Assembly: GCA_900321255.1 (NCBI GenBank)
Contig: ONVK01000040.1
Span: 1-37,496 of the forward strand
Length of the DNA: 37,496 nt
Direction of reading: 5' to 3'
Origin: an uncultured Lentisphaerota bacterium
Lineage (GTDB): Bacteria > Verrucomicrobiota > Kiritimatiellia > RFP12 > UBA1067
The position numbers and the translations under genes were made by a program. Of this stretch, positions 4,410 through 37,496 are shown piece after piece. A model generated the notes under the pieces. That model saw only the letters and a list, made by a program, of their open reading frames with translations. It was not told the DNA's origin and did not search any database. How positions within the stretch are numbered: the first letter of the stretch is position 1; each line of letters begins with the position of its first letter.

Positions 4410-6305
4410 ATGAAGAAAAGCATGTTTCCGGATTGGTCGTCGTTGACGCCAGAAAAGGCCGCGGCGGATTTGCCGCGCCTCCTCGAAGAAGCCGAGAAGG
4501 GCGTGGCGAAGATAGAGGCATCGTCTCCACAGACTTTCGAAGACCTCGAGTGGGCCCTTGCGGACGCGACTCGCCCGCTGTGGGACCTCTGGGGAATGGT
4601 CGGCCACATGATGTCGGTAATGAACTCCGACGAGTGGCGCAAGGTCGACGAGGAGTTCCGCCCGAAGATCGTAGAGTTCTCCCTCAGGGTTTCGCAGTCG
4701 AAGCGGCTCAACGACCTTGCCAAGGAGGTCCTTATGCGCCTCAAGTCGTGCGGCGGCGAAGGGCCGAACGCGACGAAGATACGCATACTCGAGAAGTCGA
4801 TCCAGGGAGCGGAGCTCTCGGGCGTCTCGCTCGAAGGCGAGAAGAAGAAGCGCTTCAACGAAATCTCCCAGCGCCTCTCGAAGCTTTCGATGGACTACTC
4901 CAACGCCGTCCTCGACGCGACGGATGCGTTCAAGTTCGAGAAGGATGGCAAGACCTACACGATCGACGACGCGAACTATCCGCAGACGATGAAGCACTGC
5001 GCCGACCGCGAGGTGCGCGAGAAGCTCTTCCGCGCCCGGTCGACGCGCGCGCCAGAGAACACGGCGAGGATCGACGAGATTCTCGCCCTCCGCTTCGAGA
5101 AGGCGAAGCTGCTCGGCTTCAGGAACCCGGCGGAGCTCTCGATCGCCGTCAAGAGCGCGCCGTCCGTCGCGGCGGTGATGAAGATGATCGACGACCTCGA
5201 TGCGGCGACCGAGAAGATAGCCGCCGAGGAAAAGGCGGAGCTCGTCGAGTCCGCGAAGGGCGCGGTGGAGAAGCTTGAGCCGTGGGACCAGTCGTACTAT
5301 GCGACGCGGCTGCGCGAAAGCAAGTACTCCTATTCCGAGGAGGAGCTGAAGAAGTACTTCGAGGTGGAGGATGTCGTCGCGGGGCTGTTCAAGATGGCGA
5401 ACTTCCTCTACAACGTGGACATCCGCGAGCTGAAGGGCGACGAGAAGCCGTCCGTATGGCATCCCGACGTCAGGTTCTTCGAGGTGTCTGAGGGCGGGAA
5501 GCCGATCGCCCACTTCTACTTTGACCCGTATGTCCGGAACGGCCAGAAGCGCGGCGGCGCGTGGATGAACTCCTTTGAAGACCGCTGCGACCGCAGGGGC
5601 GTCCTCCCGCTTGCCCTCGTCGTCACGAATTTCCCGCAGCCCGACGAGAACGGCAAGTCGTATCTCCCGATGCGCGAGGTCGAGACTGTCTTCCACGAGT
5701 TCGGCCACGCGACGCAGTGCATGTTCACGAGGATCGGCGAGGAGGGCGCCGCTGGGCTTTCGCTCGTCGAGTGGGACGCGGTGGAGGTCGCGAGCCAGTT
5801 CAACGAGAACTGGTGCCTCGACGACCGCACCGGAATCAGCGTTCCCGCCGACCTCAAGAAGAAGGTGCTCGCCGCGAAGAACTTCCGCGCGGCGACGGTG
5901 TGCCGCGCCCAGCTCGCGCTCGCCAAGATCGACATGCTGCTGCATATCGGCGAGAACGGCGGCAAGAAGCCCCGCGAGATCAAGGAGGAGATATTCCGCC
6001 ACTTCGACATGCCGATGGTAAAGGAGGATCTCTTCCTCTGCGCGTTCGGCCACATCTTCGCGGGCGGATATTCCGCCGGCTACTACGGCTACAAGTGGGC
6101 CGAGGTGATGAGCGCCGACTGCTACGGCGCGTTCGAGGAGGCGGGGCTTTCCGACGACGCCGCCGTGAAGCGCGTCGGCAAGGCGTACCGCGACACCGTC
6201 CTCGCGCTCGGCGGCAGCGAGTCGGCCTACGAGGTGTTCCGGCATTTCCGCGGCCGTGCGCCGACGATTGACGCGCTTCTCCGCCAGCGGGGCCTCAAGC
6301 GATGA
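4410..6305 (+). CDS. M3 family metallopeptidase (oligopeptidase A / thimet-like)
   Basis: A 631-residue cytosolic zinc peptidase. HEFGH at residues 429-433 gives the two His ligands and catalytic Glu. The downstream EWDAVEVASQFNENW segment (about 453-467) holds the third zinc ligand Glu and matches the EWDAVE-x-SQ pattern of the oligopeptidase A branch. The helical N-terminal half is normal and overall length is slightly below the usual 680. It degrades short peptides, including cleaved signal peptides in other bacteria. No signal peptide is present. The start is leaderless. Its stop overlaps the ATG of the CAAX-protease-related gene by four bases (ATGA). Confidence 0.93.
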   Translation: MKKSMFPDWSSLTPEKAAADLPRLLEEAEKGVAKIEASSPQTFEDLEWALADATRPLWDLWGMVGHMMSVMNSDEWRKVDEEFRPKIVEFSLRVSQSKRLNDLAKEVLMRLKSCGGEGPNATKIRILEKSIQGAELSGVSLEGEKKKRFNEISQRLSKLSMDYSNAVLDATDAFKFEKDGKTYTIDDANYPQTMKHCADREVREKLFRARSTRAPENTARIDEILALRFEKAKLLGFRNPAELSIAVKSAPSVAAVMKMIDDLDAATEKIAAEEKAELVESAKGAVEKLEPWDQSYYATRLRESKYSYSEEELKKYFEVEDVVAGLFKMANFLYNVDIRELKGDEKPSVWHPDVRFFEVSEGGKPIAHFYFDPYVRNGQKRGGAWMNSFEDRCDRRGVLPLALVVTNFPQPDENGKSYLPMREVETVFHEFGHATQCMFTRIGEEGAAGLSLVEWDAVEVASQFNENWCLDDRTGISVPADLKKKVLAAKNFRAATVCRAQLALAKIDMLLHIGENGGKKPREIKEEIFRHFDMPMVKEDLFLCAFGHIFAGGYSAGYYGYKWAEVMSADCYGAFEEAGLSDDAAVKRVGKAYRDTVLALGGSESAYEVFRHFRGRAPTIDALLRQRGLKR

Positions 6306-28057: not shown

Positions 28058-29697
28058 CGGCAGGCCTTCGCGGTATGGCAGGGATTCCAGAGCTCGTCGG
28101 GCGCATTCTCGAAAAACGCGGCATATCCGCCGCGGAGATCGACGACTTCCTGTCGCCGTCGATTCGCGACCTCGCGCCGGCTCGGGAGCTGCCGAACGTC
28201 GAGGCCGCTGCCGAGGCGATACTCTCGGCGGTCCGCGCCAGGCGCAGGATCGTCGTCTTCGGCGACTATGACTGCGACGGAGTCTGCGCGACCGCCATAC
28301 TCGTCAGGACTCTCGCCGCCTTCGGCGCGGACGTGTCGCCGTTTCTCCCGGAGCGTCTGAGCGAGGGCTACGGCATGTCCGAGGCGTCGGTCGCGAGGAT
28401 GCTCGCCGAGAATCCCGGCGTCGGTCTCGTGGTGACTGTCGACAACGGAATAAACTCCGTTGAGAACATCGCGTTCCTGAGGGGGAAGGGCGTTGATGTC
28501 GTGGTCACTGACCATCATCTTCCCGGAGAGGTTCTTCCCAACTGCGTGGTCGTCAACCCGAAGGTCTCCCACCCCGACGTCTTCGAGAACCTCTGCGGAG
28601 CGGGCGTCGCGTTCCTCCTCGCAGGAGAGCTTGTATCCCGCGCGAAGTCGGCGGGGCTCTATTCCGGGCCGTCGCTCGCGGGGCCGCTTCTCGTTCTCGC
28701 GGGGCTTGCGACAGTCACCGACGTCATGCCGCTCCTCGGGCAGAACCGCATACTTGTCGCGGAGGCGCTCAACCGCTTCGACGCGCTCGCGCCCGTCGGA
28801 CTCAGGGCTCTCTTCGCAAAGGCGGCGAAGCGCGGGGTCGCGCGCCACACGTCGAGGGACTTCGGCTTTCTTCTCGGGCCGCGCATCAACGCCGCCGGGA
28901 GAATCGCATCAGGCGCCGAGGCGCTGCGGCTGGTTCTCGCGGACGACCAGGACGAAGCCGGCGAGGCGGCGCGCATCGTCAACGGACGCAACGACGAGCG
29001 GAAGTCCATCGAGCAGAAGATGCTCGAGGACGCGCTCGCAAAGGTCGTGCCGGGAGCGGCCGCGCAGGTCATAGACCTTCCGGACGGACATCAGGGCGTG
29101 GCGGGGATCGTCGCGGCACGCGTTATGGAGCGCATGGAGCCGAAGGTCCCAGTCTGCGTGGTCGTAGGCGGGCATGGTTCCGCGCGGGCGCCCGACGGAA
29201 TCAACGTGCGCGACGCGCTTGCAGCGTCGGGAGATTTCCTCGACCGCTTCGGCGGACACGCCGCGGCAGCCGGGTTTTCGGTGAAGGCGGGGATGGTCGA
29301 CGCGTTTCGCGCGAGGTTCGCCGAGGTCTGCTCTGGATTCGCGGCCGGGGCGCGTTCGGATGCGCGGGACGACGGAGTGGACGCCTGGGTGACGCCCGAA
29401 GACCTTACTCTCGATGTCGTCGGGTGGATGTCGAGGCTCGAGCCGTTCGGAGAGGGCAACCCCGAGCCGCTGTTCGGGATGAAGGACGCCGTTCTCTGCG
29501 ACATCCGGCCTCTTGGGCAGGAAGGGCGACATCTCGCGCTCACGGTCAACGGGATGCGCGGAGTGTGGTGGGGGCGCGGCGACGTCGTCGAGGATCTGCG
29601 CCGTGGCTCGTCCGCTTCGCACGACGTTATCTTCACGGTCGCCGAGTCGGAATACGGCGGTCCCCATGTCGAGCTCCGCGTAGTCGAAATACGCTGA
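28054..29697 (+). CDS. recJ: single-stranded-DNA-specific exonuclease RecJ
   Basis: A 547-residue DHH-family nuclease. Motifs: VVFGDYDCDGVCA (about 67-79), VVTVDNG, VVTDHHLPGE (DHH), GPRINAAGRI, and the DHHA1 motif GGHAAAAGFSV, followed by an OB-like C-terminal domain (FGEGNPEPLF). It degrades single-stranded DNA 5' to 3' in recombination and mismatch repair. The GTG start at 28054 overlaps the hisF stop by four bases; an ATG at 28075 (MAGIPELV) is a plausible alternative start. The nearest strong hairpin downstream is at 29846-29873. Confidence 0.95.
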   Translation: MTAGLRGMAGIPELVGRILEKRGISAAEIDDFLSPSIRDLAPARELPNVEAAAEAILSAVRARRRIVVFGDYDCDGVCATAILVRTLAAFGADVSPFLPERLSEGYGMSEASVARMLAENPGVGLVVTVDNGINSVENIAFLRGKGVDVVVTDHHLPGEVLPNCVVVNPKVSHPDVFENLCGAGVAFLLAGELVSRAKSAGLYSGPSLAGPLLVLAGLATVTDVMPLLGQNRILVAEALNRFDALAPVGLRALFAKAAKRGVARHTSRDFGFLLGPRINAAGRIASGAEALRLVLADDQDEAGEAARIVNGRNDERKSIEQKMLEDALAKVVPGAAAQVIDLPDGHQGVAGIVAARVMERMEPKVPVCVVVGGHGSARAPDGINVRDALAASGDFLDRFGGHAAAAGFSVKAGMVDAFRARFAEVCSGFAAGARSDARDDGVDAWVTPEDLTLDVVGWMSRLEPFGEGNPEPLFGMKDAVLCDIRPLGQEGRHLALTVNGMRGVWWGRGDVVEDLRRGSSASHDVIFTVAESEYGGPHVELRVVEIR

Positions 29698-29845
29698 CGG
29701 CGCTGCAACCGCGGCAAATCCACCATGCCTTCTTGGCAGGGGCGCATCTCCGAGGCGCCCGCATCCCCGCGGCATATGTGTCGGGCCGTCAGATGTATAG
29801 CGGCGGCGCGTACGCGGAGGGGCGAGTTTCGGCTTAGGGCTCGCT

Positions 29846-29873
29846 AGCTTTGCCGCGGATACGCGGCAAAGCT
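29846..29873. repeat. perfect 12-bp inverted repeat, possible terminator after recJ
   Basis: AGCTTTGCCGCG - GATA - CGCGGCAAAGCT. There is no T-run after it on either side, so a Rho-independent role is uncertain. It is followed by a second small CCGG...CCGG repeat. Confidence 0.55.
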
Positions 29874-29898
29874 CCGGCGAAAAAACCGGTGGCGACAT

Positions 29899-29969
29899 CG
29901 ATTTCGCGGTCTTTCACATTTTGCCAGTGCCGTCAAGCCTCTCGGCAAAATGACGACGCGTCGAAATCG
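29899..29969. other. nested inverted repeats, candidate structured RNA
   Basis: Outer arms CGATTTCG (29899-29906) and CGAAATCG (29962-29969) enclose inner arms CATTTTGCC (29917-29925) and GGCAAAATG (29944-29952). The interior loops are nearly equal (10 and 9 bases) and the apical loop is 18 bases. ATTTTGCC recurs at 30001-30008. No known RNA family recognised. Confidence 0.35.
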
Positions 29970-30070
29970 GGTCGCTTCCGTCTTTCCGCACTATAATCTC
30001 ATTTTGCCGCGCTTGATTTCCGTGCGGCGTTTTCGCTATAATACTCCCATCCCGCGAGGCGAGGGGCGAG

Positions 30071-30161
30071 TGTAAAGTGTAAAACGTAAAGTGTAAAGTT
30101 GTGGAGGTTGCGGCTTAGCCGCTCCATAACTTTCAACTTTCCACTTTCAACTTTAAACTCT
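30071..30161. repeat. inverted arrays of heptamer repeats
   Basis: Four units of the type TGTAAAG (30071-30098) face five units of the type CAACTTT (30127-30161), each exactly 7 bases. The arms between them pair closely: AAAGTTGTGGA (30095-30105) with TCCATAACTTT (30123-30133), one G-T apart, and a GCGGC-TTA-GCCGC hairpin (30110-30122) at the tip. The arms would form a long imperfect cruciform or RNA hairpin. Confidence 0.65.
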
Positions 30162-30246
30162 TCCACGCGGCGCGGGGTCATAGTCCGGAAAACGAGAGCA
30201 ATCTCCGCCGGGCGCTTGTCAATGTAGCATCAACGCTACACGTCGT

Positions 30247-30366
30247 TCAAGAGAAATACTTCCACAAATCTCTCAAGATCAAAACGACATGTAAGCGAGG
30301 ATGCGCCAAGCTGGGCGCATTTTCTCTTCGTGCATTTTGATCGGCCTGTGGAAGGGCTTCTCTTGA
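30247..30366 (+). ncRNA. candidate structured or switching RNA upstream of the EcoRI-type methyltransferase
   Basis: Three paired segments line up on one axis: TCAAGAGAA (30247-30255) with TTCTCTTGA (30358-30366), CTTCCACA (30259-30266) with TGTGGAAG (30347-30354), and GATCAAAA (30277-30284) with TTTTGATC (30335-30342). That is 25 perfect pairs interrupted by a 3x3 and a 10x4 interior loop. The top holds an ATGCGCC/GGCGCAT hairpin (30301-30320) followed by TTTTCTCTT. The sequence TTTCTCTT at 30321-30328 can instead pair with AAGAGAAA (30249-30256), giving a mutually exclusive fold. CTCTCA in the large loop (30270-30275) is complementary to TGAGAG downstream (30372-30377), a possible pseudoknot. 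Read as + strand leader RNA of the methyltransferase this resembles an attenuator or riboswitch, but no family is recognised. Confidence 0.45.
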
Positions 30367-30425
30367 GTGCATGAGAGGAAGTGCGCTCTTTTTCATGCAT
30401 GCGAGGCGGTCTCCGCGACGATTTA

Positions 30426-30461
30426 TGCGCGGCAAGAAATTCCGCATTGAATTTTCGCGCA
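30426..30461. repeat. inverted repeat directly upstream of the methyltransferase
   Basis: TGCGCG (30426-30431) and CGCGCA (30456-30461) enclose AAATTC (30437-30442) and GAATTT (30449-30454). It ends 27 bases before the start codon. The inner arms overlap GAAATTC and GAATTTT, AT-rich sequence close to the GAATTC site methylated by EcoRI-type enzymes. It could be an autoregulatory site. Confidence 0.4.
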
Positions 30462-30488
30462 GAGGTGCGGAGTTTTGGGGGGAGAGTA

Positions 30489-31505
30489 ATGAATGATGCG
30501 AAAGCGTTGCTTGCTGCAAAACGGGCGAAGAAGGACGAATTCTACACACAGCGTGTGGATATTGAAAACGAGTTAAAGCACTATAAACCACATTTCAAAG
30601 GAATGACGGTTCTTTGCAACTGCGACGATCCGCGGCAGAGCGAGTTTTTCAAGTTTTTTGTTGAGAACTTTGAGCGACTTGGGTTAAGAAAGCTGATAGC
30701 GACTTGTTATAAGTCGCAGGATGTAGATCTCTTTTCTCAAGGAGATTGCGAGCGCGCTATTTGTCAGGTGTATGAGGGCGACAAGAACGGAAACATGATT
30801 TTGGATGATGACGAGATTGGCGTTAGGGAACTCAAGGGCAATGGTGACTTTCGGAGTGAAGAGTGCATAGGCATTCTGAAGGACTCCGACATAGTTGTAA
30901 CCAATCCGCCTTTCTCTCTCTTTCGTGAGTATGTCGAGCAACTAGCCAAATACAAAAAGAAGTTTTTGATAATTGGGAACGTTAATTCGTTGACATACAA
31001 AGAGGTGTTTCCGCTTATCAAGGGAAATGAATTGTGGCTTGGCGCTTCGATTCATAGCGGAGACAGAAAATTCGGCGTTCCTGCCGACTATCCGCTCAAC
31101 GCCACATCATGTGGGGTTGATGAAAACGGGCAGAGATTCATAAGGGTGAAAGGCGTTAGGTGGTTCACCAATCTTGATTATCCACAACGCCATGAGAAAC
31201 TGCCTCTCTATAAGAAGTATTCGCCAGAAGAGTTCCCAAAATATGATAACTATGATGCGATAGAAGTCGCAAAGACATCTGACATTCCATATGATTATGA
31301 CGGTGTTATGGGTGTGCCAATTACATTTATGGACAAATACAATCCTGAACAGTTCGAGTTGATTGGCTGTAGTGATAATGGGGCGGTGGACGATCGATAC
31401 AAATTGCCGCATTTCAAGCGACACAACGAACCATACATAAATGGCAAGAAGATGTATAAGCGGATATTCATTCGTCACAGAAAAGAAGAGGGGAAGCAGT
31501 CGTGA
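30489..31505 (+). CDS. EcoRI-type adenine-specific DNA methyltransferase
   Basis: A 338-residue protein matching the EcoRI methylase family: the N-terminal segment KKDEFYTQRVDIENELKHYKPHFKGMTVLCNCDDPRQSEFFKFFVENFERLGL and the catalytic NPPF motif in VVTNPPFSLFREYV (about 139-142). It would methylate adenine in a short palindromic site. No restriction endonuclease of the EcoRI type follows. Codon use is AT-rich relative to the rest of the window, which points to horizontal acquisition. ATG 30489 follows GGGGGGAGAG; the open frame runs upstream to 30381 through structured DNA and is probably not translated. A DUF262 gene lies 5 kb on and may be its former nuclease partner. Confidence 0.88.
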   Translation: MNDAKALLAAKRAKKDEFYTQRVDIENELKHYKPHFKGMTVLCNCDDPRQSEFFKFFVENFERLGLRKLIATCYKSQDVDLFSQGDCERAICQVYEGDKNGNMILDDDEIGVRELKGNGDFRSEECIGILKDSDIVVTNPPFSLFREYVEQLAKYKKKFLIIGNVNSLTYKEVFPLIKGNELWLGASIHSGDRKFGVPADYPLNATSCGVDENGQRFIRVKGVRWFTNLDYPQRHEKLPLYKKYSPEEFPKYDNYDAIEVAKTSDIPYDYDGVMGVPITFMDKYNPEQFELIGCSDNGAVDDRYKLPHFKRHNEPYINGKKMYKRIFIRHRKEEGKQS

Positions 31506-31702: not shown

Positions 31703-34645
31703 ATGTTGGATCTTGAGGCAGTCAAGGAGTTGTTGGGCGGGTTGCTCTTGCGGCCTTGCCTTGTGGGGGCGTTTGCCTTTCTTGGGGCTGGCGTGCTCTG
31801 CTGCTTGTGCAGGTTCTGCCGGAAGCACCTTGTCGGGCTGTGGCTTCATTCGCGTTCCCAATTTGTGGCGCTTGTGATTGCTGCGGGGATTGCGACTGGT
31901 GTTGCGCAGAAAACGACGAACAACGTACCGCCGAACCTTAATTCGCCGTTGCCGCAGATGATGCAGGGCGGGATTTCTCAGGCAGGATTTGTGGGGGAGG
32001 GTAGTCTTGTAAATCCTGTCCAAACATCTCTTGACGACATCGCTCGCGGCTATCGACAGGAAAGCATGACGACCAATCTGGAGTCGTTTGCCGAAATGCC
32101 GTCAAATGCAGTCGAATACACGCGGTGGTCGTTGCGCGGCGGATTTGCCGCAGACTTTGCGCTGCATCTCGGCAATTTTGTTTTTCCGGTCGGCACAAAC
32201 CGCGTAAGCCGCTTCGACGTTCTTTCCGGTGGGGCGGTAGAGCCGCTTCCGCGCGGCACATCCGCCGCGATATATGCTGCCCGCGAACAGGCGTCGCTTG
32301 TCCCTGGCGTGAGCCGGTTCTGGAGCGCGGACGCGGACGACGGCGCGAAGGTGCTGCGCTGGGATCGCGTGTTTGAGGGCCGCGACAGCACGGGCGAATA
32401 CACGGCGGAGATGCGGTTCTTCCAAAACGGAGACTTCACGACACGGAGCAACGAGGTGGAAACCGCGTATCGCCGCGTCAACCCCGACGACTGGGATGAC
32501 GACGGGATTGCCAACGAGCGAGACGCGAATCCGACAAGCTATGACGGTGATTTCTTTGGCGTGGCGAATGCGCTGCCATCCAATGCGAACATGAATGCCT
32601 ACTACTGGCTTGACCTTTCGGTGACAGGGCTTCTCGATTGCGCGACGATCCGCGTCACTTGCGACGGACCGAGCGACCTTGGCGACCATCTGATAGTCGC
32701 CCGCACGAACGAGGTCTGCCACATTCCGCTTCTTGTTGGCGCGACCTACGCTGTCGAAAGCGACCTGCCGATTGACCATTCAGCCGTGTCCACAGAACAC
32801 GCCGAAATCGTGACGAACTCCGAGAACCGCTTGACTGTTTCGCTGCCTCTGGAGCTTTATTTTGAGCGCGTTCAGATGAGGTCGGGCGGGGGGTCTGGCG
32901 ATGCACTTACTGCCAACTACGCGCTTCATTCCTCGCCGATAGACGTTGGTGCGTCGCTTGCTTCGCTCTCCGGAGGGTGCTGCTCCTGTGAGACAAACGC
33001 ATTCGGCTTTGCGTGGCTCTGCTCTGAGAATTGCCTGTGCGACGGTGAGCATCGGCTGTATGCCGTGGCAGCGTGGGATGGCTATTGCCGCGCATTCAGC
33101 TGGCATGGCCCGTGCAGTTGCACAATGTACGAGCCAGAGCCGAGCACTTTCACTGGTGATGGGATCAGCCTGTCGATAGAAATGCCGTCCACGTTCATTG
33201 CGAACGACGACGACGACAACGACAATGGTTTGGTGGATGCCGAGCCGCCGTTCGCGGACAAGGACGACGAAATCACGGAGGGGCACGTGTCGTTCTCTTC
33301 AATCTTGCCGACCAGCGGGGCCGTCAAGCTCCAGAGATTGACGGGGCTTGAGCAGGGCACGAACGGAACGCGTCGCGTTTATGCCGACAAAAACGGCCTC
33401 TCGCCAATTGACGAAGGGCATGAGTACGCCGTATCGGGCTCATCTTCGCTGGAGCGGGATTTCTTTGTCAACCCCGCCGTGACGAGTTCGCATTACCAGG
33501 ACGGGCGCGTACGCGTCCTGTGGAAGCCGAACTCCGGAGCTTGCTCCTCCGTGAGCAAGCGCTTTACAATCGTTGAGCCGACAGCCGAGCCGATCACCGA
33601 CGAGTCGTGGTCGCTCGCCGATTTCGCGGGCGACGGACGGCTGCATTCCTACCTCTACAACCCATGTGCCGTCGTCGTGGGGAAGATGGCGACATTCAAA
33701 GTCGATGTTCTGCCCGAGGACTATCCCGACAGCAAGATAATCTGGACGACCAACATGTGCGAAGGTGCGGTCAACTTTGTCGGCTCGAATGTCAACACCG
33801 GAAGAGTCGTGACGGTCGAGGGGGAGTCGGCGGGGTCTCTTTTTCTGGTGGTCAACATTGGTGATTCCGAGGCGGTCCCTCCTGTCTTTATGGTAAATGT
33901 TGTCGAGGAATCGACTGTTAAGCTGCGGGCGTGGATTATCGGAGGGGATTCTCAGTGGCCCAAGGATGAAACGAGCATCAGTAACATGGTTAGCGTTGCG
34001 AATGACATATGTTCTCAGGTTGGCGTCGTGATTGACTTGGTTGACCCAATTGTTAAAACCAACATACCAAATGCCTACAACCCGACTATAGAGGGTGTGG
34101 AAACCAATAGATGGCAAATTGGGCGGTTAGTGTCAATCGCCGAGGGTACGGATGGTCTGGAATGTTATTTCGTAAACGGTTTTTATGATCAACCAGGGAC
34201 GGCTGGCGTAAACTGTCCGTCTGGTATGGTTCTGACTGCATTTGCGGATGGCGTTACGCTTGCACATGAGATTGGCCATGCCTTTGGCCTTAACGATATA
34301 TTCATTTCTAATGAAGACTATACCAATGATGTCGTGACGCTAAGGACAATTACACCAGAAGAAAGGCCAAGAGAGGCGTATATGGAGGCAGACTGGAACG
34401 GAGGTTGTAAAGGACACGGGGCTGGTGGCGTTCGATACTATGGGAAAGATATCACCCATTCAGAGGTTATTGGAAGGATGCTGATGAATGGATGTGGAGG
34501 GTCTGGACGAGACATCTCCTGTGGCCAGGTGCATGGCATCTGGTATAGTGGAGATGGAAAGCAAGACGAAGATTGGCACATCGATTTGGCCCCTGTTGGC
34601 TTTTGGGATGGCACAATCAATACGCGTAGTCCGGTTCATCAATAG
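31703..34645 (+). CDS. large exported or membrane-anchored protein with C-terminal metzincin-like zinc motif
   Basis: A 980-residue protein. Hydrophobic segments lie at about 11-35 and 52-68, so it is membrane-anchored or exported. The body is beta-rich, with Cys-rich stretches (GGCCSCETNAFGFAWLCSENCLCDG, about 427-450) and acidic calcium-binding-like repeats (WDDDGIANERDANP; NDDDDNDNGLVDAEPP). The C-terminal 220 residues hold HEIGHAFGLND, with H855, E856, H859 and D865. This is the HExxHxxGxxD form of the metzincin motif, with Asp as third ligand as in snapalysin-type peptidases. Together this suggests a surface zinc protease or adhesin with a protease domain. It is first in a three-gene unit of exported proteins. 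No close family recognised. Confidence 0.75.
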   Translation: MLDLEAVKELLGGLLLRPCLVGAFAFLGAGVLCCLCRFCRKHLVGLWLHSRSQFVALVIAAGIATGVAQKTTNNVPPNLNSPLPQMMQGGISQAGFVGEGSLVNPVQTSLDDIARGYRQESMTTNLESFAEMPSNAVEYTRWSLRGGFAADFALHLGNFVFPVGTNRVSRFDVLSGGAVEPLPRGTSAAIYAAREQASLVPGVSRFWSADADDGAKVLRWDRVFEGRDSTGEYTAEMRFFQNGDFTTRSNEVETAYRRVNPDDWDDDGIANERDANPTSYDGDFFGVANALPSNANMNAYYWLDLSVTGLLDCATIRVTCDGPSDLGDHLIVARTNEVCHIPLLVGATYAVESDLPIDHSAVSTEHAEIVTNSENRLTVSLPLELYFERVQMRSGGGSGDALTANYALHSSPIDVGASLASLSGGCCSCETNAFGFAWLCSENCLCDGEHRLYAVAAWDGYCRAFSWHGPCSCTMYEPEPSTFTGDGISLSIEMPSTFIANDDDDNDNGLVDAEPPFADKDDEITEGHVSFSSILPTSGAVKLQRLTGLEQGTNGTRRVYADKNGLSPIDEGHEYAVSGSSSLERDFFVNPAVTSSHYQDGRVRVLWKPNSGACSSVSKRFTIVEPTAEPITDESWSLADFAGDGRLHSYLYNPCAVVVGKMATFKVDVLPEDYPDSKIIWTTNMCEGAVNFVGSNVNTGRVVTVEGESAGSLFLVVNIGDSEAVPPVFMVNVVEESTVKLRAWIIGGDSQWPKDETSISNMVSVANDICSQVGVVIDLVDPIVKTNIPNAYNPTIEGVETNRWQIGRLVSIAEGTDGLECYFVNGFYDQPGTAGVNCPSGMVLTAFADGVTLAHEIGHAFGLNDIFISNEDYTNDVVTLRTITPEERPREAYMEADWNGGCKGHGAGGVRYYGKDITHSEVIGRMLMNGCGGSGRDISCGQVHGIWYSGDGKQDEDWHIDLAPVGFWDGTINTRSPVHQ

Positions 34646-34656
34646 GAGGAGTGGTT

Positions 34657-35910
34657 ATGGTAAGAACATGGTTGAGTGTTGTGACGTTGCTTATTTGCGC
34701 TGAGTGTCTGTCGGCACAAGGCATGGGATCGTCTACAAACGTCGTGGCGCGACGTTGCGGGACTGTTCAGAATGTTGACTACATAGATGTCCTTGCGAGG
34801 CGCCAAAGGAACAGTGGGGAACTTGCCAGAAAATATGCCAAGCTTGCAAATGGTGATTCGCGGTATGTTCATCATGCGATTTCAGCAAATGGATTGTCCT
34901 CTTCAATTGACAACCTCGGGTTCCTGTACGCATTCACCAACAGCCCCAAATATGCGGCTCATGCAACGGTATCAATTGTGAGAATATTGGGGGTAAACGC
35001 TGATTCAATACAGGTCGCGGAGCATGTTTTTTCGATGGAGGCAGTCCCAAAGGAGGACAAAGTTGCTGTTTGCAAGGCAATTGCTGAGATGGCAAGCAAA
35101 AGCAATGTGCAGTTAGACGACAGGCTGTTCGCAAAGAATTTACTCCGAAGCTACGAGGCCAAGGTCGCAGGTGCGGCTCGTTTTGCGGATGAAATCCCTT
35201 TGGTGGTGTCCAATATTGTGCATAATGGAAAGCATGAGCGCAGAACAGACGGCTCTGATTCGGACGAAAAGATAAAAGGAGCTTTTCTCTTGTCATCTGA
35301 TTCTACTTCTTGCGGGAACATCCCGTCGTTGGCCTATGAGCATGCTTTTAAACTTTGCGGAGCAGACAACCGACGGCGCTCACGCATCGTGGTCGAGATT
35401 GCGCGGGAACACCCTGATCGCGTGCCGTGGGCTTTGTCCGAATTGTCCGTGTGTGGCTCTCGTGAAGATATTCCGTTTATTTGCGAATGGACGAACGACG
35501 TGCGCTGCGTCGCGAATGCAGCGCATGCTCTATTATGCATTGAGGGGGTAACGAGCAACACGATTGCATGTGTCAATACGGCAATATCCACGGAGGGCAT
35601 TGACCCCGTAAAACGCTATGCGCTTTGTTCGGCGATTGCAAGAATGGCTAAAGCCGAGAAGGATGATCCATCGTGCAAGGCACTTGCCATTTCATCGCTC
35701 AAGCGGTATTCAAGGACAATCCCAGCGACGGCGCTTTGGGCGGACGGGTTTCTGCTTTCGCTTGACCCCGACTACGAGACGAGCGATGACAGGAAAGCAT
35801 TGCTTCGCGAAGTCGCCGAGCGCCGCGTCAACGACTACCAGATTGATTACGCGACAAATGCACTGAAGAGGATCGACGCCAAAATTCAAGCAGAGAGGAA
35901 GGGGGATTGA
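34657..35910 (+). CDS. exported helical-repeat protein, uncharacterised
   Basis: A 417-residue protein with signal peptide MVRTWLSVVTLLICAECLSA; ATG 34657 is favoured by the AGGAGGAG ribosome site at 34644-34651. The mature part is almost entirely alpha-helical, with recurring segments such as DKVAVCKAIAEMA and KRYALCSAIARMAKAE, reminiscent of HEAT/armadillo-type repeats. It follows the metzincin-motif gene by 11 bases and precedes a third exported protein by two, so the three act together. Base composition is more AT-rich than the left half of the window. No function assigned. Confidence 0.65.
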   Translation: MVRTWLSVVTLLICAECLSAQGMGSSTNVVARRCGTVQNVDYIDVLARRQRNSGELARKYAKLANGDSRYVHHAISANGLSSSIDNLGFLYAFTNSPKYAAHATVSIVRILGVNADSIQVAEHVFSMEAVPKEDKVAVCKAIAEMASKSNVQLDDRLFAKNLLRSYEAKVAGAARFADEIPLVVSNIVHNGKHERRTDGSDSDEKIKGAFLLSSDSTSCGNIPSLAYEHAFKLCGADNRRRSRIVVEIAREHPDRVPWALSELSVCGSREDIPFICEWTNDVRCVANAAHALLCIEGVTSNTIACVNTAISTEGIDPVKRYALCSAIARMAKAEKDDPSCKALAISSLKRYSRTIPATALWADGFLLSLDPDYETSDDRKALLREVAERRVNDYQIDYATNALKRIDAKIQAERKGD

Positions 35911-35912
35911 GC

Positions 35913-36470
35913 ATGGTGGCGTCAGTGCTATTGTCGTCACTTTGTCTTGCCGCGGTCTTCGCCGTGCCGGAGATGCCGGAGGCGGAGTGGGACGACACTG
36001 AGGTCGTCACGAACGCCGCGCTTCCGGCGGCGCGCGCCGATTCGCGCGTGTTCGCGTTCACGCTTGAACTCGACGCGACGGCAAGCAACAACGTCGAGGT
36101 TGCGTTCGGGCACGACGCGGATCACGACGGCGTTCTTTCGCGGGGCGAGGCAGGACTGCTCGTCGGCTGGGACTGCGGAGAGTGGAAGGTCGTAGACTGC
36201 GCCACGGGCGACGAGATGGTAGAGCAAGGAACAGAAGGGCGCGTGTCGCTTGACTGGCGGCTCGTGTTCAACGCGGCAGATGTGCCGCGCTCGCTTTCGG
36301 CCACGGCGAGCGGCAACCCCGCATTCGCCGCGCTCGCGGCAAATCCGCCGCGCTTCCTTTATTCGACGGACTGGGATATGATGCGAGTGGTCTGTCGTGG
36401 GATGGATTCGCCAAGCCCGTCGATTTCTGGTTCGATCGACAACATTCCGCTCTCGATAAGAATACGGTAG
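35913..36470 (+). CDS. small exported protein with EF-hand-like loop, uncharacterised
   Basis: A 185-residue protein starting at ATG 35913, two bases after the previous stop, with GGGGGA as ribosome site. Signal peptide MVASVLLSSLCLAAVFA. The loop HDADHDGVLSRGEA (about 70-83) fits an EF-hand or dockerin-type calcium loop (DxDxDG), and WDCGEWKVVDC and VSLDWRLVFN suggest a beta-rich fold. It ends the three-gene exported cassette. GC content returns towards the window norm. No family recognised. Confidence 0.6.
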   Translation: MVASVLLSSLCLAAVFAVPEMPEAEWDDTEVVTNAALPAARADSRVFAFTLELDATASNNVEVAFGHDADHDGVLSRGEAGLLVGWDCGEWKVVDCATGDEMVEQGTEGRVSLDWRLVFNAADVPRSLSATASGNPAFAALAANPPRFLYSTDWDMMRVVCRGMDSPSPSISGSIDNIPLSIRIR

Positions 36471-36546: not shown

Positions 36547-37131
36547 ATGAAGATTGAACTTCATCGAATCAAGATACGCGATCTTGTGGATGGATATGTC
36601 GATGACGCGGAGTCCGGTGTCAGAGGGTTCCTCGGACTTCTGGACATCAGGCCCGCCTACCAGCGCGAGTTCGTCTACAAAGAGAAGGAACGAAACGCCG
36701 TGATCTCCACCGTGATGAAGGGCTTTCCGCTCAATGTCATGTACTGGGCCAAGAACCCGGACGGAACATTCGAGGTGATGGACGGCCAGCAGCGGACGAT
36801 TTCGCTTTGCCAGTACTTCAACGGCGACTTCGCGTGGGGCGAGCTCGACCTCGCGGCAAAGTACTTCCACCGCCAGCCGGAGGACATCCAGCGGAAGTTC
36901 CTCGACTACGAGCTGATGGTCTACTTCTGCGAAGGCGAGCCGTCCGAGAAGATAGACTGGTTCAAGGTCATCAACATCGCGGGTCTTAAGCTCACAGCGC
37001 AGGAGATGCGCAACGCCGTCTACTCGGGCCCGTGGGTCGCGGACGCGAAGCGCTACTTCTCGAAGTCTGGCTGCGTCGCGCAGAAGATCGGCTCGCCCTA
37101 CCTAAGCGGAAACGCGGACAGGCAGGAGTAA
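36547..37131 (+). CDS. DUF262 protein, N-terminal half, interrupted by a 26-bp duplication
   Basis: The 194-residue N-terminal part of a DUF262 (ParB/GmrS-like) protein. Family motifs: IRPAYQREFVYKEKERNAVISTVMKGFPLNVMYW (about 37-69) and EVMDGQQRTISLCQYF (about 77-92), which form the NTP-binding or nicking core. Many DUF262 proteins continue into an HNH-type nuclease and act in defence against modified or foreign DNA. The frame ends at TAA 37129-37131 created by a 26-bp tandem duplication. Without it the protein would continue as GNADRQEYLETAISW into the frame at 37131-37496. Codon use matches the host genome. The gene may be switched off reversibly or be a recent mutation. Confidence 0.8.
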   Translation: MKIELHRIKIRDLVDGYVDDAESGVRGFLGLLDIRPAYQREFVYKEKERNAVISTVMKGFPLNVMYWAKNPDGTFEVMDGQQRTISLCQYFNGDFAWGELDLAAKYFHRQPEDIQRKFLDYELMVYFCEGEPSEKIDWFKVINIAGLKLTAQEMRNAVYSGPWVADAKRYFSKSGCVAQKIGSPYLSGNADRQE

Positions 37132-37155
37132 GCGGAAACGCGGACAGGCAGGAGT
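37104..37155. repeat. perfect 26-bp tandem duplication inside the DUF262 gene
   Basis: The unit starting AAGCGGAAACGCGG and ending AGGCAGGAGT occurs at 37104-37129 and again at 37130-37155 with no mismatch. Twenty-six is not a multiple of three, so one copy restores and two copies break the reading frame. Confidence 0.9.
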
Positions 37156-37496
37156 ATCTCGAGACTGCGATTTCGTGGATGGTCAACTCGCAGAAGGACA
37201 AGGCGATCGAGGAATACATGGCGATCCACCAGGGCGACGGCGAGGCGACGGAGCTTTGGCTCCACTTCCAGAAGGTCGTGAACTGGATTGAGACCCTTTT
37301 CCCGAAATACAGGCGCGAGATGAAAGGGCTTGAGTGGGGGCGGCTCTACAGGGAGTTCTCCGCGAAGAGCTACAACCCGAAGGAATTGGAGCGCCGCGTC
37401 GTCGAGCTGATGACGGACAAGGAAGTGCAGAACAACAAGGGGGTCTACGAATTCCTGCTTTCCGGCGAGTCGCGGCGCGAGAAGTTGAACCTGAGG
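37131..37496 (+). pseudogene. DUF262 protein, downstream part in shifted frame (runs off window)
   Basis: Open for 122 codons to the window end in the +2 frame relative to the upstream half. It encodes SGNADRQEYLETAISW, then a helical region (KAIEEYMAIHQGDGEATELWLHFQKVVNWIETLFPKYRREM), as expected for the body of the DUF262 protein after the N-terminal core. There is no plausible independent start, so it is the detached continuation of the gene at 36547. The C-terminal nuclease domain, if any, lies outside the window. Confidence 0.8.

Follow-up and report, generated by a model that had tools for sequence, protein, structure and literature searches.

The stretch analysed here is 37,496 nt of DNA from an uncultured Lentisphaerota bacterium of the Kiritimatiellia (contig ONVK01000040.1, assembly GCA_900321255.1), referred to below as the window, and it carries a long imperfect hairpin upstream of a gene for an EcoRI-type adenine methyltransferase. 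With moderate confidence we favour the reading that this hairpin is part of a structured, cis-acting 5' leader RNA that functions as an attenuator and represents a family not described before, the family probably providing a shared on/off switch for many unrelated virus-defence genes in gut and rumen bacteria. Comparison of the copies establishes a conserved predicted structure with a pseudoknot, promoter, terminator and alternative helix, strict co-orientation with the following gene and enrichment before restriction-modification genes. We infer that the leader is transcribed, with regulated termination and a fold that responds to some factor or ligand. A first-pass annotation of the window had proposed a structured leader with a terminator and competing folds ahead of the EcoRI-type methylase, and this is supported here; the feature is much longer than it had indicated, extending from a promoter at 30013-30042 to approximately position 30430.

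Structure and conservation of the leader

The hairpin in the window is genuine, with a stability well beyond that expected by chance. RNAfold gave -62.9 kcal/mol for 30240-30390 on the + strand (z = -6.1), which was equalled by none of 200 shuffled sequences, the fold of the opposite (-) strand was weaker (z = -4.7), and an inverted-repeat search recovered the arms at 30247-30279 and 30334-30366. The three paired blocks and ATGCGCC/GGCGCAT apex described in the first-pass annotation were confirmed at their place. The long hairpin is only one part of a structured RNA of approximately 350-400 nt, in which an extended -10 promoter is followed by a 5' domain, a small hairpin, the pseudoknotted long hairpin, an intrinsic terminator, a post-terminator segment and the methyltransferase ATG (30489). 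The features in the window are as follows:

30013-30042, + strand: promoter, TTGATT, 18-nt spacer and TATAAT (30037-30042), consensus match 10/12
30048-30215, + strand: 5' domain of the RNA, CATCCCGCGAGGCG ... GCGCGGGGTCATAGTCCGGAAAACG, conserved in sequence among copies
30223-30240, + strand: small hairpin, TGTAGC-ATCAAC-GCTACA, retained across copies, although distant members have alternative stems
30242-30288, + strand: pseudoknot helix, six pairs in the window, GTCGTT (30242-30247) with AACGAC (30283-30288)
30247-30366, + strand: long imperfect hairpin, the feature under study (z = -6.1)
30365-30393, + strand: intrinsic terminator, GAGTGCAT...GTGCGCTC + TTTTT (hairpin 30365-30388, then TTTTT)
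30393-30430, + strand: conserved post-terminator segment, with TCATGCAT, a small hairpin (30403-30413), CGRCG and TGCGC (30426-30430)
30489-31505, + strand: gene led by the window copy, EcoRI-type adenine methyltransferase (PF13651, E = 6.7e-141; PADLOC MTase_II)

A covariance model (R1) was built from 36 copies at genus and order level; its 43 pairs take in the terminator stem as well as the long hairpin. Both sides had changed with pairing kept at 21/43 pairs in these 36 copies, and at 40/43 when 102 distinct sequences, distant members included, were considered. Over the 102 sequences the model pairs were paired in 96.8% of cells, compared with 77.4% in shuffles and 33-47% when the pairs were slid, and 816 doubly changed cells were observed against 216 expected from shuffles; because the alignment behind these figures had been fitted to R1, they are biased towards the 43-pair fold, though not towards the pseudoknot. 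All four Watson-Crick types occur at each of four pairs close to the hairpin base, and G-U pairs are common in the helices. The first-pass annotation had proposed a covariance search and had named a lack of compensatory changes in homologues as evidence against a switch; such changes proved abundant. The two alternative pairings on which it had based that switch, 30249-30256 with 30321-30328 and 30270-30275 with 30372-30377, do exist in the window but are not conserved. Across homologues AAGAGAAA and TTTCTCTT could pair in 59.2% of cells (58.7% in shuffles) and CTCTCA and TGAGAG in 66.7% (68.5% in shuffles), and on these counts the named switch pairs are chance features of the window copy. The pseudoknot helix, in contrast to these pairs, comprises seven pairs in the family (consensus GUCGUUC with GAACGRC), was paired in 95.7% of cells and in 28-50% when slid, and had both-side changes at 5/7 pairs. 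As one of its strands also pairs inside the long hairpin, the two are predicted to be partly mutually exclusive.

In most relatives a TG lies one base 5' of the -10 box, usually as TGnTATAAT, giving an extended -10 element. The 5' core CATCCCGCGAGGC was found in 45 copies, all 45 of which have a TATAAT-like box within 14 nt 5' of it. Helices CCCGCG:CGCGGG and GTCCGG:CCGGGC are predicted in the 5' domain from the sequence and the window fold, and not from covariation counts. Within this domain the window copy has its own direct-repeat insert (GTAAAGTGTAAA; ACTTTCAACTTTCC) at approximately 30068-30165, and other copies have different inserts at nearby sites, from which the 5' domain would appear to tolerate insertion. 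Immediately 5' of the RNA (29732-29985) is a dispersed repeat that recurs many times in the genome, mostly away from the RNA; its best matches are 85-100% identical. One explanation for a promoter followed by a folded RNA is that the leader is passive, a strong promoter and a structure that insulates or stabilizes the mRNA, or holds acquired genes constantly low, with no regulation. The extended -10 promoter does look constitutive and a terminator could simply dampen expression, but the retention of the pseudoknot and alternative helices by compensatory change across the order and beyond suggests more than an insulator, and we consider a passive leader improbable.

Terminator and the segment beyond it

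The first-pass annotation described a T-rich tail to the apical hairpin. This T-rich stretch exists but is internal, and the terminator proper is formed by the next hairpin (30365-30388) and TTTTT. It is present throughout the family as a helix with a U-rich tract, with a mean energy of about -10.5 kcal/mol (59 copies). Past the U-tract, the conserved sequence comprises first UCAUGCAU, next a small hairpin and finally a UGCGC element, beyond which conservation ends. The UCAUGCAU segment is complementary to the 5' arm of the terminator, as is TCATGCAT in the window, where the conserved alternative helix joins 30367-30374 to 30393-30400. Copies with altered terminator arms have matching altered partners (e.g. 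GUACAG/CUGUAU, CACGGGA/UCCCGUG and GUGCAG/CUGCAU), and the score of this helix was reached by 0/500 reshufflings among variant copies. Folding of the window read-through RNA predicts an alternative hairpin that includes the U-tract and displaces the terminator stem. There is thus a conserved pairing that would exclude the terminator, as in an attenuator; its partner lies downstream, so the timing is not that of the classical mechanism.

Genes led by the RNA

Among 112 assessable copies (12 more were not called), the first downstream gene shared the strand of the RNA in 109 and was opposite in three, and its median distance from the model end was 56 nt (within 120 nt in 95/109). Upstream genes, by comparison, were on the same strand in 63 cases and opposite in 35. 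The order of promoter, leader, intrinsic terminator and co-oriented gene is that of a terminator-type attenuator, and the short leader-gene spacing leaves little room for another promoter. Alternatively, the element could be an independent small RNA gene whose product works in trans, with phage or host transcripts as possible targets, and its link with defence genes could be one of shared travel only. The promoter-to-terminator unit is complete, genomes carry many copies and sequence variation is concentrated in the paired strands, all of which would suit such an RNA; set against this, conservation and pairing extend beyond the terminator, and a trans-acting RNA would have no need to lie so consistently close to, and in line with, the gene that follows. 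We consider this explanation unlikely.

Of 99 downstream proteins scanned, 37 matched EcoRI_methylase and DNA methyltransferases accounted for at most approximately 60. The other matches were to D12, N6_N4, Eco57I, N6_Mtase and C5 methylases, HsdM, type III helicase subunits and nucleases of the Z1 and SacI families. Leucine-rich repeat, TPR and acyltransferase proteins formed a minority, and surface proteins were among the downstream products. Distant members lead a type ISP restriction enzyme, a SNF2 helicase and an N6_N4 methylase. The first-pass annotation had suggested looking for homologues ahead of other EcoRI-type methylases, and among 30 such loci in the genus, two of which were cut off upstream, the RNA was directly upstream in 24/28 (one of these matches, L228, scored 44.8 bits and is counted as it sits directly 5' of the gene). 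The association is not limited to EcoRI-type methylases, but with the RNA upstream of only 3/30 N6_N4 methylase loci it is selective as well as strong. A retron msr-msd RNA was considered and rejected, as no reverse transcriptase was present among the downstream window genes scanned, nor was it among the 25 commonest Pfam families of the 99 downstream genes, rarer families lying outside this set.

In the window, the methylase is followed by open reading frames of 980, 419 and 187 amino acids (31703-36470) with no Pfam or PADLOC match, and then, at 36547-37496, by the presumed partner, a type II restriction enzyme (GmrSD_N; PADLOC REase_II) in two pieces in different frames. The second piece is cut by the contig end, and the split reflects either a frameshift or an assembly fault. 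In several relatives the second gene lies directly 3' of the methylase. In two distant genomes (L190 and L193) the RNA precedes related TSP3-repeat proteins that share a PPAEDFILRQP motif.

Distribution and movement

The window's own genome contains four further full-length copies on other contigs at 74-79% identity, in which the stems vary with pairing kept and the neighbouring genes are other DNA methyltransferases. Matches were found by blastn in 26/58 relatives' genomes, and by R1 in 49/61 genomes of the genus (1-9 matches each), 105/161 of the order and 38/288 across the phylum at E <= 1e-6; R1 E-values are rough, and matches of approximately 36-45 bits, which may be chance, were not used, with the exception of L228. 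The named records with a core match were assemblies of Kiritimatiellae/Verrucomicrobia from rumen or gut, together with uncultured-bacterium assemblies of the RUG series. Phages and plasmids gave no match by distant blastn, and IMG/VR none to an exact pattern. The first-pass annotation had recognized no described family, and no Rfam 15 family exceeded its gathering cut-off anywhere in the window; a permissive search of 29690-30560 returned chance-level matches only (best E = 1.8), and at the element in 12 relatives' loci no family matched, the only hit being a tRNA elsewhere. In the literature we found no RNA leader of restriction-modification genes and no Verrucomicrobia/Lentisphaerae RNA motif, large candidate lists (e.g. 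PMC8040213) not having been compared sequence by sequence.

A divergent subfamily (L158, L166 and L171; 56-73 bits with R1) stands ahead of a second, longer EcoRI-like methylase type in several genomes and retains a ATAGTCCGGAAAACG-type motif upstream. At locus L068 (genome G017) two RNAs diverge from one another (5278-5458 and 5905-6085, approximately 450 nt apart), one leading an acyltransferase-like gene; the fragment led by the other is short and groups with EcoRI-type methylases.

Leader and gene often move as a unit. The window copy is 87% identical to copies in two other genomes (G030:C3 and G007:C51) over the span that begins at the small hairpin and takes in the methylase, with most of the outside sequence lacking a match. 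In most other pairs leader similarity ends no more than 60 nt beyond the terminator (2486/2689 pairwise alignments), and in one pair of loci (G000:C65 and G058:C84) leader and flank are 98.8% identical and the methylases different. Another possibility is that the hairpin forms a structured terminus of some mobile cassette, or an attC-like recombination site working as folded single-stranded DNA with the defence genes as cargo, given the dispersed copies, the near-identical leader with swapped cargo and the stems that change fast while their shape is kept. However, none of 59 genomes had an integron integrase over the family cut-off (TIGR02249, IntI), no attC core boxes were seen (R'/R'' boxes being absent from the hairpin ends), each gene has a single copy on its 5' side only, promoter and terminator are conserved, and the frequent G-U pairs fit RNA. 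We regard this as very improbable. A miniature inverted-repeat mobile element was likewise rejected, as copies in the same genome are 74-79% identical and 109/112 are co-oriented with the next gene.

Discussion

We propose that a dedicated extended -10 promoter would start transcription, that the pseudoknotted domain would fold and that RNA polymerase would then meet the intrinsic terminator ahead of the gene, so that expression of the downstream gene or operon would be set by the frequency of read-through. In the read-through RNA the terminator 5' arm, purine-rich loop and U-tract would re-pair with the adjoining 3' segment, excluding the terminator stem, and the resulting hairpin may stabilize or expose the read-through message. 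A cis-acting attenuator is the most economical explanation because it accounts for a dedicated promoter, a complex fold and a terminator with little room for a second promoter. Several points weigh against it. The leader is known here from comparative sequence and not from transcripts; the covariation permutations only partly remove relatedness; distant members also lead a glycosyltransferase, a sigma factor and a trypsin-like protease, which are not defence genes; and the alternative partner, being 3' of the U-tract, cannot form before the termination decision. We do not call it a classical antiterminator, since it would act only on read-through RNA or on polymerase past the U-tract. The 3/112 orientation exceptions, the non-defence cargo and the sequence-only basis together keep our confidence in the attenuator moderate.

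It is conceivable, though we think it rather doubtful, that one infection-linked signal couples many unrelated defence systems through the shared attenuator; a phage-modified polymerase or an infection-altered metabolite would, for example, promote read-through and thereby an RNA-controlled defence regulon. The control of restriction-modification and other defence genes in bacteria is poorly understood. If the attenuator reading is correct, one large, conserved, pseudoknotted leader RNA would govern a defence regulon that spans modification genes of types I, II and III, and would represent a new class of structured RNA from a poorly cultured lineage, suited to structure probing and to a search for its ligand or factor.

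Attenuators and terminator-type riboswitches similarly place a leader RNA with a conserved fold, mutually exclusive pairings and an intrinsic terminator between promoter and gene. The present leader differs in having no Rfam match, in an alternative partner 3' of the U-tract and in a cargo that is chiefly restriction-modification and not a metabolic pathway, which suggests no single metabolite and offers no ligand candidate. The ops/JUMPstart element with RfaH, EAR and put RNA serve acquired operons as leader elements or in processive antitermination. They resemble the present family in that one element heads many unrelated acquired operons (defence, surface), but the element described here is closed by a terminator and has no Rfam match; a literature search on such elements gave no results. 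Integron attC sites share the long imperfect hairpin, variable stem and changing cargo, and differ in that the present element has a promoter and terminator, lies 5' of each gene and lacks core boxes. To our knowledge, the known controllers of restriction-modification and defence genes are mostly DNA-binding proteins. Antisense RNA and reverse promoters reportedly operate in EcoRI-type systems, and the protein RptR represses a restriction-modification island (PMC12255303). These likewise control restriction-modification expression, but RptR is a DNA-binding protein and the others are antisense transcripts, whereas the family proposed here is a large, sense-strand, structured leader common to several types of restriction-modification system.
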